A stretch of DNA of 51,147 bases, from the NCBI GenBank assembly GCA_025934355.1, contig JAICYF010000003.1, positions 1 to 51,147 on the forward strand, written 5' to 3'. A program made the translations under genes and the position numbers. Of the stretch, positions 16,805 through 27,157 are shown in pieces (the first letter of the stretch is position 1; each line of letters starts with the position of its first letter). This DNA is from Acidothermaceae bacterium (lineage in GTDB: Bacteria; Actinomycetota; Actinomycetes; Acidothermales; Acidothermaceae). A model generated the notes under the pieces. That model saw nothing but the letters and a program-made list of their open reading frames with translations. It was not told where the DNA came from and made no database searches.

Positions 16805-19030
16805 CTACTTGCCGAGCGCGCTGATCACCTGGCCCTCGACGTTGATCGAGATGGCGGCTGGGCCGCCGAGCAGTTTCGCGGACCCGGTGCCCGCTTGACC
16901 GCTGATGACCGTCTTCGTGGCAGGGCTGCCGGCGAGGTCGTCCGGGTTGACCAGCACCAGGACGCCGCCGTCATCGGCGATCGCTGACCCGGCCGCGACC
17001 GCGTCAGGCCAGTTGACACCGGTGGCCAGCCACAGCTTGGACAGGCTCAGGCCGGCCGACGTCGCCGCGTTCGCGACCGCCGCCGACGTGCCGTACCGGT
17101 CGCTGCCGGCGAGTCGCGGCGCGACCGTCGTCACAATCTTCCCGATGGCGTCGGAGACAGACGACGAGATCGCCACGGTGCCGCCGACGATGGTGGCGGT
17201 GCCGACCCCTGCCAACGCCTCAGCCGTGTCGGCCGGCAGTTGTCCTGACGTCGCGAGCAGGATCGGGCGACCTTGGCGGGCCGCGAGTGGCGCCACCGAC
17301 ATCGCGTCGGCGAAACCGTTGCCGTTGACGACGTAGACGTTGTTAGAGCTCGTGCCGGTCAGCGCGTCGACCTTGGCCTTGATGGCAGCCGCCGTCGCGA
17401 ACCTGTTGGCGCCGCCGACCCGCACCACATTGGTGATGCCGGCTTGCGAGCTGAGCGCGCTCGCCGTCGCGTCGCTGATCGCGCTTTGCTCGCCGAGCAC
17501 ATACGCCGTCGTCGCGCCCAGACGTTTGATTTCAGCCGCGGTCTCCGGCGACAACTGCTTGCTTGTCGTGAGCAGCAACGGGACGTTGGTCGTGCCGTCC
17601 GGCGAGGTACCGGGCATCGCGGCGACGGAGGCGAGCACGGAACCCGCTAGCGCGTCGGCGAAGTCGTCAGACCGCGCGATGACGACGGCAGGCGCGCCGT
17701 TCGGGAACGTCGCCCGCGACGTCGCGATCGCCGTCCCGATCCGGTCGGCGCCGCTGAGCCGGGTCAACAGCGGTGTGGCGTTCACCGCGTCGAACCGCAC
17801 GACGTTGCCGGTCTGAGCGGCGCTCGGACCTTGACCGGTGCACACACTGCAGGTCGTGATGTAGGCCATGCCGTCAGGACCGAACGCGATTCCGCCAGGG
17901 AAGTTCAGGTTGTTCAGCAGCAGTTGCTTGCTTCCGCCGTCCGCCGAGACCCGGAACAAGGCGCCGACGGGCGGCGCGCCTAACAGCGAGTTGTGCGCGA
18001 TCTCGAGGACGTAGAGGTTGCCGTCAGGGCCGACAGTCTCGTCGATCACGTTCGTGAAGCCGCTGACGTACGACGACAAGGTCGTCCCGTTCAAGCTGAA
18101 CACCGACGCACCGCCAAGCGGGAACGGGAAGCCGGTCAGTTGCCCCACGTACGTCGTTCCGTTCGGTCCCGCGGCGAGCGACGTCGGCACCGGCTCCGCG
18201 GGGATGATCGTGCCTGGCGGCATCTTCAGGAACGGGGGCGCGGGAGTGAAGATCGGCGGCAACACGGCGGCGGTGCTCACCGCGCCGGTCGCAGCGTCGA
18301 CCGCCAGCACGTCGTCGCCACCCGCGTCGGCCACCAGCACCGAGGAGCCGTTGACCAGAACGCTGTAGGGGTTGGTGTCGAGCGTCGACGTCGGGACGAT
18401 TCCGTGGTCGGGGTTGTGGGCGGCCTCGTAGTCGGCGAGGCTGGCGACCTTCGTCGCGCCGGTGCCGTCGGAGTTCGCCTTCCACAAGGCGGCGAGGTTC
18501 GCGCCCGGAGCGCCACCCTTGGTCAACGCGTCGCGATCAGCCGGCGCGCCGCCGAGGCCGATCACGTAGTAGATCGTGCCGTCGCTCGCGACCGACACGT
18601 CGGCCGGACCCGTCGCCTCGGTGCCTTGGTCGGGTTGCGGCGTGCTTGGGTCGTCGGTCTGCGTCGCGAACGACGGCAGGCCGCTGATGAGCCGGTCGGA
18701 CGACGTCGCCACGTGCCCGGTGACGGTCGAGGCGTTCGGGACCGCGGTGATGGCGCCAGTCGGGCCGTAGCAGACGGTCGAACCCTCGGAGCTCTTAAAG
18801 CAGACGCCATTGCCACCAGCGCCGGACTCCGCGACGTAAAGGGTGTCGCCGGAGAAGGTGAGTCCGCGCGGGTTGTTCAGGCCGGAGATTACGATCTGCG
18901 GCGCGGTTGGCGCCGCAATCGCGGTGGCGGTCGGAACGAGGATGGATCCGGCGCCGATCAGGCCGCCGACTCCGACGGCACTGGCCATGAGCTTGCCGAT
19001 GGTCTTGGACTGCGAGCTCTTCGGTCGCAT
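16805..19030 (-). CDS. Secreted protein: ScyD/ScyE-like beta-propeller domain followed by cell-wall-binding repeat 2 (CWB2) domains
   Basis: Signal peptide; APQIVISGLNNPRGLTFSGDTLYVAESGAGG...LAAGPNGTTYVGQLTGFPFPLGGASVFSL; then CWB2 modules RLSGADRIGTAIATSRATFPNGAPAVVIARSDDFADALAGS, RVGGANRFATAAAIK, RLAGSDRYGTSAAVANAA. Confidence 0.9.
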   Translation of the reverse strand: MRPKSSQSKTIGKLMASAVGVGGLIGAGSILVPTATAIAAPTAPQIVISGLNNPRGLTFSGDTLYVAESGAGGNGVCFKSSEGSTVCYGPTGAITAVPNASTVTGHVATSSDRLISGLPSFATQTDDPSTPQPDQGTEATGPADVSVASDGTIYYVIGLGGAPADRDALTKGGAPGANLAALWKANSDGTGATKVASLADYEAAHNPDHGIVPTSTLDTNPYSVLVNGSSVLVADAGGDDVLAVDAATGAVSTAAVLPPIFTPAPPFLKMPPGTIIPAEPVPTSLAAGPNGTTYVGQLTGFPFPLGGASVFSLNGTTLSSYVSGFTNVIDETVGPDGNLYVLEIAHNSLLGAPPVGALFRVSADGGSKQLLLNNLNFPGGIAFGPDGMAYITTCSVCTGQGPSAAQTGNVVRFDAVNATPLLTRLSGADRIGTAIATSRATFPNGAPAVVIARSDDFADALAGSVLASVAAMPGTSPDGTTNVPLLLTTSKQLSPETAAEIKRLGATTAYVLGEQSAISDATASALSSQAGITNVVRVGGANRFATAAAIKAKVDALTGTSSNNVYVVNGNGFADAMSVAPLAARQGRPILLATSGQLPADTAEALAGVGTATIVGGTVAISSSVSDAIGKIVTTVAPRLAGSDRYGTSAAVANAATSAGLSLSKLWLATGVNWPDAVAAGSAIADDGGVLVLVNPDDLAGSPATKTVISGQAGTGSAKLLGGPAAISINVEGQVISALGK

Positions 19031-19209
19031 CAAGCACCCCCCGGGGGAAGAGAGAACGATCAACATCGTGAGGCGACAGGCGTATCAAGGATTCGTTAAC
19101 GCGCGCAATAGCGGTCGGGAAAAATACGGAAATCGACTACCTCTGGCCGCACCAGCGGTCGACGCGCCGGGCACGGTTGACCACATTGCGTGACGGGCAT
19201 CGATCAAGC

Positions 19210-20199: not shown

Positions 20200-20388
20200 C
20201 TAGGCGGCGGCCGGGTGCAGCAGCACCTTGGTCCAGCCGTCGACCCGGTTGTCGAAGTTCTCGTATCCGGTCGGCGCCTCGTCGAGCGACAACTCGTGAG
20301 AGACGATCCAGCCCGGCCGCGCTTTGCCAGCGATGATGAGGTCGCGCAGGCGGATTCGGCCCTTCTTGGCGCGTGGGCTATCCGTCAG
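20200..20388 (-). pseudogene. C-terminal remnant of a zinc-dependent alcohol/formaldehyde dehydrogenase
   Basis: Minus-strand reading: WLTDSPRAKKGRIRLRDLIIAGKARPGWIVSHELSLDEAPTGYENFDNRVDGWTKVLLHPAAA*; in-frame TGA just upstream and no N-terminal domain anywhere nearby. Confidence 0.75.
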
Positions 20389-21098
20389 CCAACCGCTTCA
20401 TCCGCCCGATCCGGCGCCGACTCGGGGACCGGCTCGGGCCGCATCTCGCGGCCGCTGCGCGGCGACGGGCTCGGACGACGTGGCTCTCGCACGCCCGACC
20501 CGCCGCCACCGGCCGCCAGCCACAACCGCACGGACGATCCGGACGAGACCTTCGCGCCAGCCTCAGGGACTTGGCCGGTGACGACCTGGTCAGGCCAGCC
20601 GAGGTTCTCGTAGGGGACGCCATCGGCGTCCCATCCGACGGGCACGAGCCCGTGCTCCTCGATCAGGCCGCGCGCGCCGGCGGTGCGCAAACCGATCACC
20701 CGAGGGACGACCACCGAACCCTTGCGCCGTCGACGCTTCGCCCAATCGGTGAGCTCGGACGCCGCGCTCGCGACCGCGTGCGCCTGCGCGGGCGTTTCCA
20801 CCACGGCGCGCGGGAGGTCGTCCGAACTCTCCTCGGCCGTCTCGTCGAGCTCGCGCCACCGCTCCCACGCCGATTGCCTCGTGACGCCGAGCATGGTGGC
20901 GATCTCCGCCCACGATCGTTTCTGTCGGCGCGCCACCCGGACTGCGGAAAGCTCGGCCTCGTCGAGCAACCGACGCAGCATGCCGATGTCGCACAAAGCC
21001 TCCAACGGATCGCCTTCGCGCCCCGCGCCGCTCGCTTCATCCCACTCGGAAAGCCGGGCCCACGCCTTGCGTGGGTCATGCCGTCTACCGCCGCTCAT
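20385..21098 (-). CDS. HTH-domain protein with C-terminal PASTA domain, no predicted TM
   Basis: AVRVARRQKRSWAEIATMLGVTRQSAWERWREL (HTH) ... VVVPRVIGLRTAGARGLIEEHGLVPVGWDADGVPYENLGWPDQVVTGQVPEAGAKVSSGSSVRLWLA (PASTA). Confidence 0.82.
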   Translation of the reverse strand: MSGGRRHDPRKAWARLSEWDEASGAGREGDPLEALCDIGMLRRLLDEAELSAVRVARRQKRSWAEIATMLGVTRQSAWERWRELDETAEESSDDLPRAVVETPAQAHAVASAASELTDWAKRRRRKGSVVVPRVIGLRTAGARGLIEEHGLVPVGWDADGVPYENLGWPDQVVTGQVPEAGAKVSSGSSVRLWLAAGGGGSGVREPRRPSPSPRSGREMRPEPVPESAPDRADEAVG

Positions 21099-21175: not shown

Positions 21176-21215
21176 CGGAGTGCACGCCGATCCAGGCTGC
21201 GGCGTCAGTAGTGGC

Positions 21216-21734
21216 GTGACCTTCGAGGAGTTCATCGCAAGCCGGCTGACCGACCTCCTCAGGCACGCCGCCGTCCTCACCGGCGATCGAGACCTCGCGC
21301 AAGACATCGTGCAAGAGGTGCTCGCCCGGGCGCAGGTGAAGTGGCGGCGGATCACGCACGCGGACTCCCCTGACGCGTATGTGCGCCGAATGATCATCAA
21401 CGAGTACCTGTCATGGCGGCGGAGCTGGGCCTCCCGCAACGTGCACGCGGTCGGCGAACGGCTTGCGGCCATCGCCGACGCCAGGCGGGTGGGTCGCGAC
21501 CACGCGCAGGACCTCGCCGAGTCCGATGAACTGTGGCGCCGCCTCGCCACGCTGCCACGCAAGCAACGCGCCGTTTTGGTGCTGCGCTATTACGAACAAC
21601 TGGACGACGCGGCTATCGCCGACCTCCTCGACTGCGCACCGGTCACGGTCAGAAGCAACGCGTCAAAAGCCTTGAAATCGCTGCGACTCGCCTCTGAGCA
21701 ACAGCTCCGAGTGCGAGAGAAGGAGTTGAGATGA
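21216..21734 (+). CDS. ECF RNA polymerase sigma factor, SigE/SigM-like (SigE family)
   Basis: VTFEEFIASRLTDLLRHAAVLTGDRDLAQDIVQEVLARAQVKWRRI..DSPDAYVRRMIINEYLSWRRSWASRN..LPRKQRAVLVLRYYEQLDDAAIADLLDCAPVTVRSNASKALKSLR; sigma2 and sigma4 signatures. Confidence 0.93.
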   Translation: MTFEEFIASRLTDLLRHAAVLTGDRDLAQDIVQEVLARAQVKWRRITHADSPDAYVRRMIINEYLSWRRSWASRNVHAVGERLAAIADARRVGRDHAQDLAESDELWRRLATLPRKQRAVLVLRYYEQLDDAAIADLLDCAPVTVRSNASKALKSLRLASEQQLRVREKELR

Positions 21735-22780
21735 GCGACGAAGACGAATTGCTCCACGAAGTCTTTAGGGCGCACGAGTATTTGGCGCCAGACCCGGTGG
21801 TCGTGCGCGCCGGAATTCGCAACCGGGCAAGGGCTTATGCCCGACGCCGCAAAGCCGCACAGGCGGCTGGCGGCGCGGTGCTCGGCGCCGGCTTGGTGAC
21901 CGTTGGGGTCGCCGCGCCGTACGTGGCGCGCAACACGTCGAACCACTCGACGTCGGGTGTCGCCGCCTTGGGCGCGCCGTCATCGAGCGGTGACGCGACG
22001 TCGTCGACGGTGTCGTCGCCGGCGCCGCTGCCGTCGCCGGTGTCGTCAGAGGAGGCGCAGCGGGCGCTGGACGCGTACTTCGCCGCGGGCTACGACTACA
22101 ACGACGCGATGCAGCTAGCCGTGTTGTGGAAGATGCCGAACGACGTGCCCACCGTGAAGACCGCGGCTGGTGAAAAGCTGCTCGCCGGCGACACGCTGCC
22201 GATCAAGCCCAGCTCGCCGCAGGGCTCGACAAGCGCTGCCGAGGTCGACGACACCAACGCGTTCTTCAACGCCGGCTACACCTACGACGACGCATTGAAG
22301 TTGGCGCAGTTGTGGAACTTGCCCGACGCCTACCACGCAAAAGTGAGCGGCGGACAGAAGTTGATCGCGGGCCAAACGCTGCCGATCAAGCCGGGTTCGA
22401 CGCCATCGTCCATTGAGACGACGAGCCCCGCCGGTATCGCCGACAGCGCGCGCACGGCGTACTTCAACGCCGGTTACGACTACAGCGACGCCATGCAGCT
22501 GGCGAAGCTGTGGAACATGACCGACCCCACGGCGGTGAAGACGGTCGCCGGTCAAAAGCTGCTCGCAGGTCAGCATCTGCCAATCAAACCGAGCGGCACT
22601 CCGGTCACCACGCCAAGCGCCGACGAGACCGCCGACATAGACGCGTTCTTCAACGCCGGCTACACCTACAACGACGCCGCGCAACTGGCCACGTTGTGGA
22701 AGCTCGCCGACCCTTACCACGCAAAGATCACTGCCGGCCAGAAGCTGATCGCCGGCGAAACGCTGCCGATCAAACCGTGA
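21731..22780 (+). CDS. Single-TM protein with four extracytoplasmic ~45-aa repeats; putative sigma-operon partner
   Basis: ATGA overlap with the sigma gene; cytoplasmic N-terminus ~40 aa, TM AAQAAGGAVLGAGLVTVGVAAPYVA, then repeats at residues 115-160, 177-221, 243-287, 305-349. Confidence 0.9.
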   Translation: MSDEDELLHEVFRAHEYLAPDPVVVRAGIRNRARAYARRRKAAQAAGGAVLGAGLVTVGVAAPYVARNTSNHSTSGVAALGAPSSSGDATSSTVSSPAPLPSPVSSEEAQRALDAYFAAGYDYNDAMQLAVLWKMPNDVPTVKTAAGEKLLAGDTLPIKPSSPQGSTSAAEVDDTNAFFNAGYTYDDALKLAQLWNLPDAYHAKVSGGQKLIAGQTLPIKPGSTPSSIETTSPAGIADSARTAYFNAGYDYSDAMQLAKLWNMTDPTAVKTVAGQKLLAGQHLPIKPSGTPVTTPSADETADIDAFFNAGYTYNDAAQLATLWKLADPYHAKITAGQKLIAGETLPIKP

Positions 22781-23829
22781 CTCACGCCCTGCGGCGGCGC
22801 ACCGGCTTCGAGATCGAGCTGCTTGCGCCAGAGGGTTCGAGTCGGCGCACGTTGGCCGACGAGATCGCCTTGCGCCGCAACGGAATTGTCCGGCCGGTCT
22901 GGCACCACGACAGCGAACCGTCGCTGGTGCCAGGCCTCGGCCGTTTTCTGCATCTGACCCAAGGTTTTGAGGTGCTCGACGCCGAGGGCAGGTCGGTGTG
23001 CACGCTGGTCGACGACATCACGATCGTCGCCGACCTCGATCAGCGGGCGCGACCAGCGGCTGGCTGGTATCGCGTGCTCACCGATGACGCCCGCCTCTTG
23101 CAACTCATCGCGGCGACCGCCGACCCCGCTGATCCGGTGGAAAAATCGCTCGACCCGGTCGCAACACTTTGGGGGGCGCGCGTTCAACGACACGGCGAGT
23201 ACTTCAAAGTCGACGACGCCAGCGGCGCGACGATCGCGATCGCCGCGCCGTTGGGCGGCGGCCGGGAGCGCCCGTGCGAGATCGTCACTCCCCCGCTCTC
23301 GACGCACCATTACGTCGCACTCGACGAGTTGCTGTCGGCCGCGCGCGAACTGGGCTTCACAGTGCCAACCGAAGCGGCGTTGCATCTGCACTACGACGGT
23401 GAGCTGTTCCGGCCAGCCGGAGCTTTGGCCAACCTGATAAGGCTTTTCGGTTGGTGGCGTGAACCGTTGCGCCAACTGCTGCACACCAATCCCGCCTGCG
23501 TCAGGCTTGCCCCGCTTCCGGCAGGTCTCGTCGCGGCGGTAGACGCAAGTCCGACCTACGAGCAGCTCCGTGACGTTGCCAGGTCGTCCGGGCTTTCGAA
23601 GTTCTTCGACGTCAACCTCACCCAGCTGTTCTTGGCCAACCCGGTGCGCGACACGCTGGAGGTGCGCATTCTGCCGGGTGCGATCGACGCTGACGACATC
23701 GTACGGCAGGCGCAACTCGTTGAGGCGCTGCTGCTGCGATGTCAGGACCCGACGCCGATCTCACGTCCCCCGGCGAGCGTCGGAGACGCGGCTCACATGC
23801 TCCTCGCGGCTCTCAAGCCCCCATGGTGA
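22777..23829 (+). CDS. Amidoligase-family enzyme (glutamine-synthetase-like fold, Amidoligase_2)
   Basis: GTGA overlap with the repeat-protein gene; motifs RTGFEIELLAPEGSSRRTLADEIA (ExE), FKVDDASG, CEIVTPPLSTHHYVALDELLSAARELGF, ALHLHYDG, LEVRILPG. Confidence 0.82.
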   Translation: MTHALRRRTGFEIELLAPEGSSRRTLADEIALRRNGIVRPVWHHDSEPSLVPGLGRFLHLTQGFEVLDAEGRSVCTLVDDITIVADLDQRARPAAGWYRVLTDDARLLQLIAATADPADPVEKSLDPVATLWGARVQRHGEYFKVDDASGATIAIAAPLGGGRERPCEIVTPPLSTHHYVALDELLSAARELGFTVPTEAALHLHYDGELFRPAGALANLIRLFGWWREPLRQLLHTNPACVRLAPLPAGLVAAVDASPTYEQLRDVARSSGLSKFFDVNLTQLFLANPVRDTLEVRILPGAIDADDIVRQAQLVEALLLRCQDPTPISRPPASVGDAAHMLLAALKPPW

Positions 23830-25197: not shown

Positions 25198-26988
25198 CTA
25201 AAGGCCGAACGCGGCCACGAAGGACGGCGCGGTGCTAGCTGCCCCGAGGTGGCCGAGACCGAGCAGGTCCTCGGTGCCGCGCAGTAACCCGTAGTGGTCG
25301 AGCCGAGCGTTCGCAACCGTGGCGGGCTTGACGCTCGGCGCGATCACGATGGTCGGGATTAGGTTGCTGGAGCCGGTTCCCTCGTCCCAGGTCAAGACGA
25401 TGAGCGTGTCGCCCGATCGGTAGTTCGGCCCGGCGGTGATGGCGCCGATCCACGTCGAGAGCCACTTGTCACCGGTCGCGACGGAGCAATTGTGCGTGTC
25501 GTCGCACATGTTCGGTGTGATGAAGGAGAACGACGGGAGCGCACCGGCCGCGATGTCGTGCGTCAAGTTGCCCTCGAGTGGGATGTCGCTCGTCGCACAC
25601 GTCATCCGGATGCTTGTGTAATACGCGGCCGGGTTGTGTTTCACGGCGTAGGGGTCCTTGGATGTGAGGGCGCAATTCGCCGGCATCGATTCGTCGTACG
25701 AGCGCCAGCTCAGACCCGCTGCGGTGAGTTGGCTGAACAACGAAGGCGCGGCAATTGGATGCGCAGCCGGCTCATTGTCGTCGGTCACCCCGAACGTCGA
25801 TCCCCCTGTCGCCGCAAGGTAATTCGGCAACGAGGGATGCGTGATCGCGAAGTAGTTCGACGCCAGGCCGCATTGTTTCGCAAGCGAGTTCTCGTACGGC
25901 GCGCTCGAACTGCCGATGACCGAGCGGTAGGGCTTGTTCTCCATCCAAATCCACACCACATGCACGTAATGCGTGCCCGCGGGCGCGAACCCGCACAGTT
26001 GGTTGGCGGGCGCCACTGGACAGGTCGTGAGCGACGCGACTCCCGCGCCTAACGCGGCGGGTCCGCCAAGCAAGGTGATATGTGTCAATGACGGCACTTG
26101 CTTTGCCGTCGGCTGCGGCAGACACGTCGGGGCGGCGAGCAGCAACGGCTCACCGTGTGTTCCCGCCACCGGGCCACCGGCTAGCGCATCGGCGAAGCCT
26201 GCGCCCGACGCGACGAGAGCGCCTGTGGCGCCAGGGAATTCGGTTGTCGCGACAGCTACCGCCGTGGCGTATCGGTCGGCGCCTCCGATGCGGCTGACCT
26301 TCGCGCTGTAGGCGGCAAGTTGGCTCGCGACGCCGGCGCTCACGACACTTGTGCCACCGACGATGGTGATGGACGACGGGTGCAGGGTGGCCAGCGCAGC
26401 CGCGGTCGCGGCGGGAACCGCGTTCGGCTCGGTGAGCAGAATCGCCGCGTGTTGCGCAGCCGCTGCGGCCGTGGCCGACAGCGCGTCGGGGAAGTTGAGG
26501 CCGGTGGCAAGGTAAACCGGGCTGCCATTGGGAAACTGCGTGGCAAGCGCCGCCGCGGTGGCGTAACGGTCTGCTCCGCTCACCCGCGTGACGCTTCCGG
26601 CTGTGTAGCCCTGCAAGGCATCCTGCACCGCGGAACTCACCGCCCTTGTGCCGCCGAGCACAACGATCCGCCCGGGGTTGAGCCGGCGCAGTTCCGTGGC
26701 GATGGACGACGGGATGGAGTCGGGCGTGACAAGCAGGAGCGGACCATCGTCTTTCGCGGCGGCCGCGCCACCCGCGAGCGCGTCGGGGAAGTTGGCGCCA
26801 GTGGCGACGTAGGCCACTGGCACGCCCGGGCTGTAGTTCGCATCGACGATGGCCGCGCTGGTGGCGAACCGGTCTGCGCCTTGGTAGCGGGCGACCGTCG
26901 GAGCGGCCGCAGCGGTCCCGCTTGGGAGCCCCACGCAGACCGTCGCGGCCGCCAAAGCGGCGCAAAGCGGGGCGAGTCGTCCCCTCAT
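25198..26988 (-). CDS. Secreted protein: three CWB2 repeats fused to an alkaline-phosphatase/phospholipase-C-like phosphoesterase
   Basis: Signal peptide MRGRLAPLCAALAAATVCVGLPSGTAAAA; CWB2 units RYQGADRFATSAAIV, RVSGADRYATAAALA, RIGGADRYATAVAVA; phosphoesterase VHVVWIWMENKPYRSVIGSSSAPYENSLAKQCGLASNYFAITHPSLPNYLAATGG...LIVLTWDEGTGSSNLIPTIVIAPSV. Confidence 0.92.
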   Translation of the reverse strand: MRGRLAPLCAALAAATVCVGLPSGTAAAAPTVARYQGADRFATSAAIVDANYSPGVPVAYVATGANFPDALAGGAAAAKDDGPLLLVTPDSIPSSIATELRRLNPGRIVVLGGTRAVSSAVQDALQGYTAGSVTRVSGADRYATAAALATQFPNGSPVYLATGLNFPDALSATAAAAAQHAAILLTEPNAVPAATAAALATLHPSSITIVGGTSVVSAGVASQLAAYSAKVSRIGGADRYATAVAVATTEFPGATGALVASGAGFADALAGGPVAGTHGEPLLLAAPTCLPQPTAKQVPSLTHITLLGGPAALGAGVASLTTCPVAPANQLCGFAPAGTHYVHVVWIWMENKPYRSVIGSSSAPYENSLAKQCGLASNYFAITHPSLPNYLAATGGSTFGVTDDNEPAAHPIAAPSLFSQLTAAGLSWRSYDESMPANCALTSKDPYAVKHNPAAYYTSIRMTCATSDIPLEGNLTHDIAAGALPSFSFITPNMCDDTHNCSVATGDKWLSTWIGAITAGPNYRSGDTLIVLTWDEGTGSSNLIPTIVIAPSVKPATVANARLDHYGLLRGTEDLLGLGHLGAASTAPSFVAAFGL

Positions 26989-27096
26989 CCAGCCCACCTT
27001 CGCACATAGGCGGACGCGACCGTCGGCCGACGGCCGACGGACAACTTCGGGGTCCCCGCAGCCGCCGCGACCGCAGCCGCCGCACCAGCGGGCCCT

Positions 27097-27157
27097 GGAC
27101 ACCTGACGTCACGCGAGGACATCGCTCGGCGGGGTCCTCGCGTGCTGTCAGGTGTCC
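27097..27157. repeat. 61-bp imperfect palindrome/hairpin between divergent genes
   Basis: GGACACCTGAC-GT-CACGCGAGGAC-(13 nt)-GTCCTCGCGTG-CT-GTCAGGTGTCC: two 11-bp perfect arms separated by a 2-nt imperfection. Confidence 0.9.

Follow-up and report, generated by a model that had tools for sequence, protein, structure and literature searches.

Within the window (the whole stretch of 51,147 nucleotides analysed, a single contig of a 3.19-Mb draft genome that is 84% complete) lies a compact, self-switching three-gene unit that occurs in some soil actinobacteria and whose conservation marks it as real. It encodes an ECF sigma factor, a protein with one TM segment and four tandem repeats, and an enzyme of the Amidoligase_2 family. 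The sigma/anti-sigma part is ordinary for SigE-like sigma factors; the unusual part is the repeat–amidoligase pair, the core of the cassette, which also occurs where the sigma factor is missing. The best explanation, to which we assign a probability of roughly 0.4, is an autoregulated envelope module in which the amidoligase would modify the repeat units through an amide or isopeptide bond before these are exported.

Organisation and conservation of the cassette

The promoter, the three genes and the parts of the repeat protein are arranged as follows:

21181–21186, forward strand: −35 element TGCACG of the conserved operon promoter (TGCAC[AG]-N16/17-C[GA]TC in most cassette loci)
21203–21206, forward strand: −10 element CGTC, 9 nt before the GTG start (same conserved pattern)
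21216–21734, forward strand: SigE-like ECF sigma factor, 172 residues, GTG start (Pfam PF08281/PF04542, TIGR02983-like; orthologues about 70% identical in 40 of 41 loci)
21731–22780, forward strand: repeat protein, 349 residues, with a basic cytoplasmic N-terminus of about 45 residues, one TM segment, a Ser/Thr/Pro linker and four repeats
21872–21928, forward strand: predicted TM segment, about residues 48–66 (hydropathy maximum at residue 48)
22070–22210, forward strand: repeat unit 1, residues 114–160 (HMM; AF2 pLDDT mostly above 90)
22256–22393, forward strand: repeat unit 2, residues 176–221 (HMM; AF2)
22454–22591, forward strand: repeat unit 3, residues 242–287 (HMM; AF2)
22640–22777, forward strand: repeat unit 4, residues 304–349 (HMM; AF2)
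22777–23829, forward strand: Amidoligase_2 enzyme, 350 residues, GTG start overlapping the repeat-protein stop (PF12224, E = 3.7e-14)

Both junctions in the window are 4-nt stop–start overlaps, ATGA at 21731–21734 between the sigma factor and the repeat protein and GTGA at 22777–22780 between the repeat protein and the amidoligase, just as an earlier note on this DNA had described. Its gene assignments also stand: Pfam sigma-70 regions 2 and 4 both match the first product above cut-off, the second is a one-TM protein in which four units of about 46 residues were located, and the third belongs to the amidoligase family by a PF12224 match that it shares with 40 aligned homologues. A scan of named genomes yielded 41 loci, nearly all in Actinoplanes, Paractinoplanes and other Micromonosporaceae (one of them, L051, is the same contig as G001, where it was read as L015). 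The repeat protein is encoded immediately 5′ of the amidoligase in all 41, and a sigma factor is encoded 5′ of the repeat protein in 40, the exception being L054; the neighbourhood whose conservation the earlier note had proposed to check is kept in relatives. The sigma/repeat overlap is preserved at 40 of 42 loci, that between repeat protein and amidoligase at 39 of 43. The amidoligase gene of Actinoplanes liguriensis (L057, 8001–9093) looks interrupted, with a best open frame of about half the length, due to either an assembly error or a pseudogene.

Comparison of the window with G108, G001 and the Actinoplanes loci revealed no common neighbourhood outside the three genes. The cassette thus stands as a self-contained unit, and because the 4-nt overlaps recur across loci that share no flanking genes, the three-gene arrangement is more than chance. 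In the window, a divergent gene beside the cassette promoter (20385–21098, reverse strand) encodes a PASTA-domain protein that also gives a weak HTH match, and has no conserved counterpart at other cassette loci. Farther away, the cassette has on either side a gene for a protein with three CWB2 cell-wall-binding repeats (16805–19066 and 25198–27102, both on the reverse strand); in the second protein the repeats are fused to a phosphoesterase domain.

Repeat and amidoligase co-occur across the genomes sampled. Among 148 relatives, the amidoligase is present in four, and the repeat-unit profile matches exactly the same four. When 396 genomes from across the phylum were sampled, the two were found together only in the window genome and in G649, apart from a borderline match to just one of the two in G582 (6e-4) and in G696 (1e-3). 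Weak repeat matches in G054, G129 and G582 were judged to be chance after their ORFs had been read. A phage origin was rejected, as neither the repeat protein nor the amidoligase matched phage records, and so was a plasmid or viral origin, the amidoligase being without a match in plasmids or viral contigs.

The repeat–amidoligase pair

In the AF2 model, each repeat unit consists of three helices followed by an extended LP tail (pLDDT mostly above 90), and the units are strung as beads on linkers; confidence in the model is lower in the linkers, around the TM segment and at the N-terminus. Three residues, a Trp, a Lys and a Gly, never vary across 132 repeat units (132/132); near-invariant are G-Y, A, L-A, G and L-P, together with a position in helix 2 occupied by Asp, Glu or Asn. 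The Lys lies on the conserved face of the helical wheel. Searches with the full-length repeat protein gave no Pfam or NCBIfam family, and the repeat unit itself had no member-wide Pfam match, no PDB sequence match and no Foldseek match at E ≤ 0.001 among PDB and viral folds. Known repeat or cell-wall-binding domains (LysM, PASTA, CWB2, Ltp) were rejected as an identity for the repeats because no Pfam or significant fold match was obtained; a resemblance to LysM, peptidoglycan-binding or Ltp-like domains was likewise set aside, with two phage Ltp matches at E values of 0.2–0.6 as its sole trace.

The window amidoligase matches PF12224 over nearly its full length (residues 6–318, 53.6 bits against a cut-off of 22), and the family matches all 41 aligned amidoligases. 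The motifs read from the window sequence in the earlier note (ExE, E-I-V-T/S-P, HxH and R) are invariant or nearly so in this set: E12 and E14 of the ExE motif, E168-I/V-x-T-P, H203xH205, and E295/R297. Formation of an amide bond is the predicted activity. The AF2 model of the enzyme has a pLDDT of 88.6 and a pTM of 0.86, but Foldseek retrieved no solved structure from the PDB at E ≤ 0.001, so a GS-like fold is predicted through the Pfam family only. No Pup-ligase Pfam match was found. A role in defence was discarded: its sole lead is a weak match of residues 105–188 to a model of the CRISPR-associated Csx19 (E = 0.0012), which is probably chance.

The sigma factor is dispensable to the pair, because two genomes carry the pair without it. 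In L054, a Micromonosporaceae MAG, and in G649, which belongs to the same phylum and lies outside the class of the window organism, no sigma factor is encoded beside the pair. A signal-peptide-like start replaces the anti-sigma-type N-terminus of the repeat protein, and the amidoligase follows with a 4-nt overlap. The two amidoligases cluster with supports of 83 and 84 on one side of a midpoint-rooted tree. Such a grouping would fit one gain, or one loss, of the sigma front end, although the branches are long and the placement is unsure.

Repeat distances track amidoligase distances after correction for the sigma factor (partial r about 0.6) and do not track sigma factor distances after correction for the amidoligase (partial r 0.03), a co-variation that is only suggestive because the longer amidoligase may be the better proxy for the species tree. 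In the best explanation, the amidoligase, translationally coupled to the repeat gene, would form its amide or isopeptide bond on the repeats before their export, with the invariant Lys as the candidate acceptor. The timing is a difficulty for this explanation: with the enzyme expected in the cytoplasm and the repeats outside the membrane, any modification would have to come before export. Furthermore, the units are modelled as ordinary folded three-helix domains in which the Lys may be purely structural, and Paractinoplanes atraurantiacus carries a duplicate of the sigma–repeat pair that is not adjacent to an amidoligase gene.

The topology problem disappears if the repeats are instead a sensor or binding domain for an exported small molecule or cell-wall peptide precursor on which the amidoligase acts, the bound product feeding back on release of the sigma factor; in genomes without the sigma factor, a secreted repeat protein would simply bind that product. 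This reading has a substantial, if below-even, chance of being correct. It accommodates the co-occurrence of repeat and amidoligase equally well, the conserved aromatic residues and the beads-on-linkers fold suit a binder, and the extracytoplasmic parts of other SigE-family partners in the genome vary as sensors would. However, Pfam, PDB sequence and Foldseek searches recognise no ligand-binding family in the repeat, and a strictly invariant Lys is explained less directly. We rank modification of the repeats slightly above binding of the amidoligase product.

The sigma factor, its membrane partner and the promoter

The sigma factor has the hallmarks of the ECF group: about 170 residues comprising sigma-70 regions 2 and 4 only, with PF04542 and PF08281 both above cut-off. 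Its score against the SigE-family model TIGR02983 (131.8–132.7 bits) is just under the cut-off of 141.55, placing it just outside the NCBIfam model. In the window genome, all ten SigE-family sigma factors above the cut-off (on contigs C101, C25, C280, C214, C28, C312, C30, C268, C301 and C251) have an overlapping one-TM partner, as do others below it. These partners have a short Arg-rich N-terminus and one TM segment near residue 40–48. Their extracytoplasmic parts differ from one another, and those of the ten constitute a family of candidate sensors. The cassette has in common with such actinobacterial pairs the sigma factor sequence, the 4-nt overlap, the Arg-rich cytoplasmic N-terminus and the single TM segment, but the portion outside the membrane is here an unnamed tandem repeat, and a third gene encodes an amidoligase.

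The anti-sigma topology that the earlier note attributed to the repeat protein is supported by analogy with the SigE-family partners, which share the short basic N-terminus and one TM; binding of the sigma factor is what we infer from it. Pfam and NCBIfam recognise no anti-sigma domain in the N-terminus. Class I anti-sigma domains are cytoplasmic four-helix domains averaging about 101 residues (PMC7406223), and the N-terminus of the repeat protein, which has about 45 residues ahead of the TM segment and two predicted helices that precede this segment or run into it, is too short for this class. With fewer than 50 residues and two such helices leading into one TM, its layout resembles that of the class II anti-sigma factor CnrY, which wraps its sigma factor with two helices (PMC7406223). 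A reading in which the repeat protein has no anti-sigma role, being an ordinary membrane protein whose gene shares a transcript with an autoregulated sigma factor that is controlled otherwise, is improbable. The short N-terminus without a recognised domain would fit such a protein, as would the TM segment, which is only moderately hydrophobic (mean hydropathy 1.7). However, every above-cutoff SigE-family sigma factor in the genome precedes the same arrangement of a short basic N-terminus and one TM, and N-terminal distances stay correlated with sigma factor distances after correction for the amidoligase (partial r 0.50 for all loci and 0.27 within Micromonosporaceae).

A conserved promoter, TGCACA-N16/17-CGTC, is found 8–9 nt before the GTG start of the sigma factor in most loci, usually with an A-tract 5′ of it; the window version is TGCACG-N16-CGTC (21181–21206). 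Because the −10 element lies 9 nt 5′ of the GTG, a transcript with little or no leader is predicted. The TGCACA-N16/17-CGTC pattern alone cannot define targets because its 29–57 matches per genome are near the count of the reversed control in many genomes, and a wider regulon based on it was rejected. The A-tract form is almost confined to the cassette in 20 Actinoplanes-type genomes, with four other sites. Three of these were discarded as targets since they lie inside long open frames, have the wrong spacing and look like chance; the fourth precedes the duplicated sigma–repeat pair of P. atraurantiacus (L136, 1520–2839). Because the A-tract form is nearly unique to the cassette and its spacing is conserved, the data point to autoregulation and, at A-tract stringency, to a regulon that is the operon itself, a closed circuit; targets with weaker promoters would be missed.

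In the autoregulated envelope module that we favour, the short N-terminus of the repeat protein would hold the sigma factor at the membrane until a change of state in the extracytoplasmic repeat array frees it. The freed sigma factor would then act at the TGCACA-N16-CGTC promoter to transcribe little beyond its own operon, and the levels of repeat protein and amidoligase would rise together. The signal-dependent peptide or envelope modification suggested in the earlier note is plausible. The complete chain, a protein-modification circuit with no described counterpart in which a GS-fold ligase modifies an exported tandem-repeat protein at the invariant Lys, the modified array serves as the sensor of the anti-sigma factor and the sigma factor drives only its own operon, is unlikely to be right in every part. 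Since repeat and amidoligase stay linked in genomes where no sigma factor accompanies them, their linkage is not accounted for by a common sigma control, and this speaks against the improbable reading that the repeats are self-stabilising stalk domains (through, for example, a spontaneous Lys–Asp/Asn isopeptide bond), that the amidoligase modifies the envelope independently and that the linkage reflects shared regulation only, even though the invariant Lys and the near-invariant Asp/Glu/Asn position in helix 2 would suit such domains.

Relation to known systems

Amidoligase_2 enzymes are said to have been described by Iyer et al. in 2009 as predicted GS-like amide-bond formers. The cassette enzyme resembles them in its full-length PF12224 match and in its ExE, HxH and Arg motifs, and differs from other Amidoligase_2 enzymes in being dedicated to an exported repeat protein within a sigma-controlled operon. 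The Pup ligase PafA is a GS-like enzyme that ligates to Lys residues of proteins; the likeness is one of concept, a GS-like ligase with a Lys of a protein as its target, and the cassette has no gene for a Pup-like tag. Graspetides with multi-core precursors likewise combine a repeated precursor with a ligase gene, but graspetide ligases are ATP-grasp enzymes (PMC8939145), whereas the cassette enzyme is not, and the repeats here are predicted folded domains of 46 residues.

An ECF sigma factor with a one-TM regulator is of a known kind; the new elements are the repeat domain, which has no family name, and its dedicated amidoligase. A literature search, with most subscription papers outside its reach, found no description of a sigma–repeat–amidoligase system. 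Sequence surveys rarely supply an Amidoligase_2 enzyme with a specific protein partner that can be tested, as this pair does, and because many cultivated Actinoplanes species carry the cassette, the question of the substrate is directly testable. If the repeats prove to be modified, the cassette would amount to a protein-modification circuit under sigma control; should they act as a sensor, they would represent a new input domain for ECF signalling.
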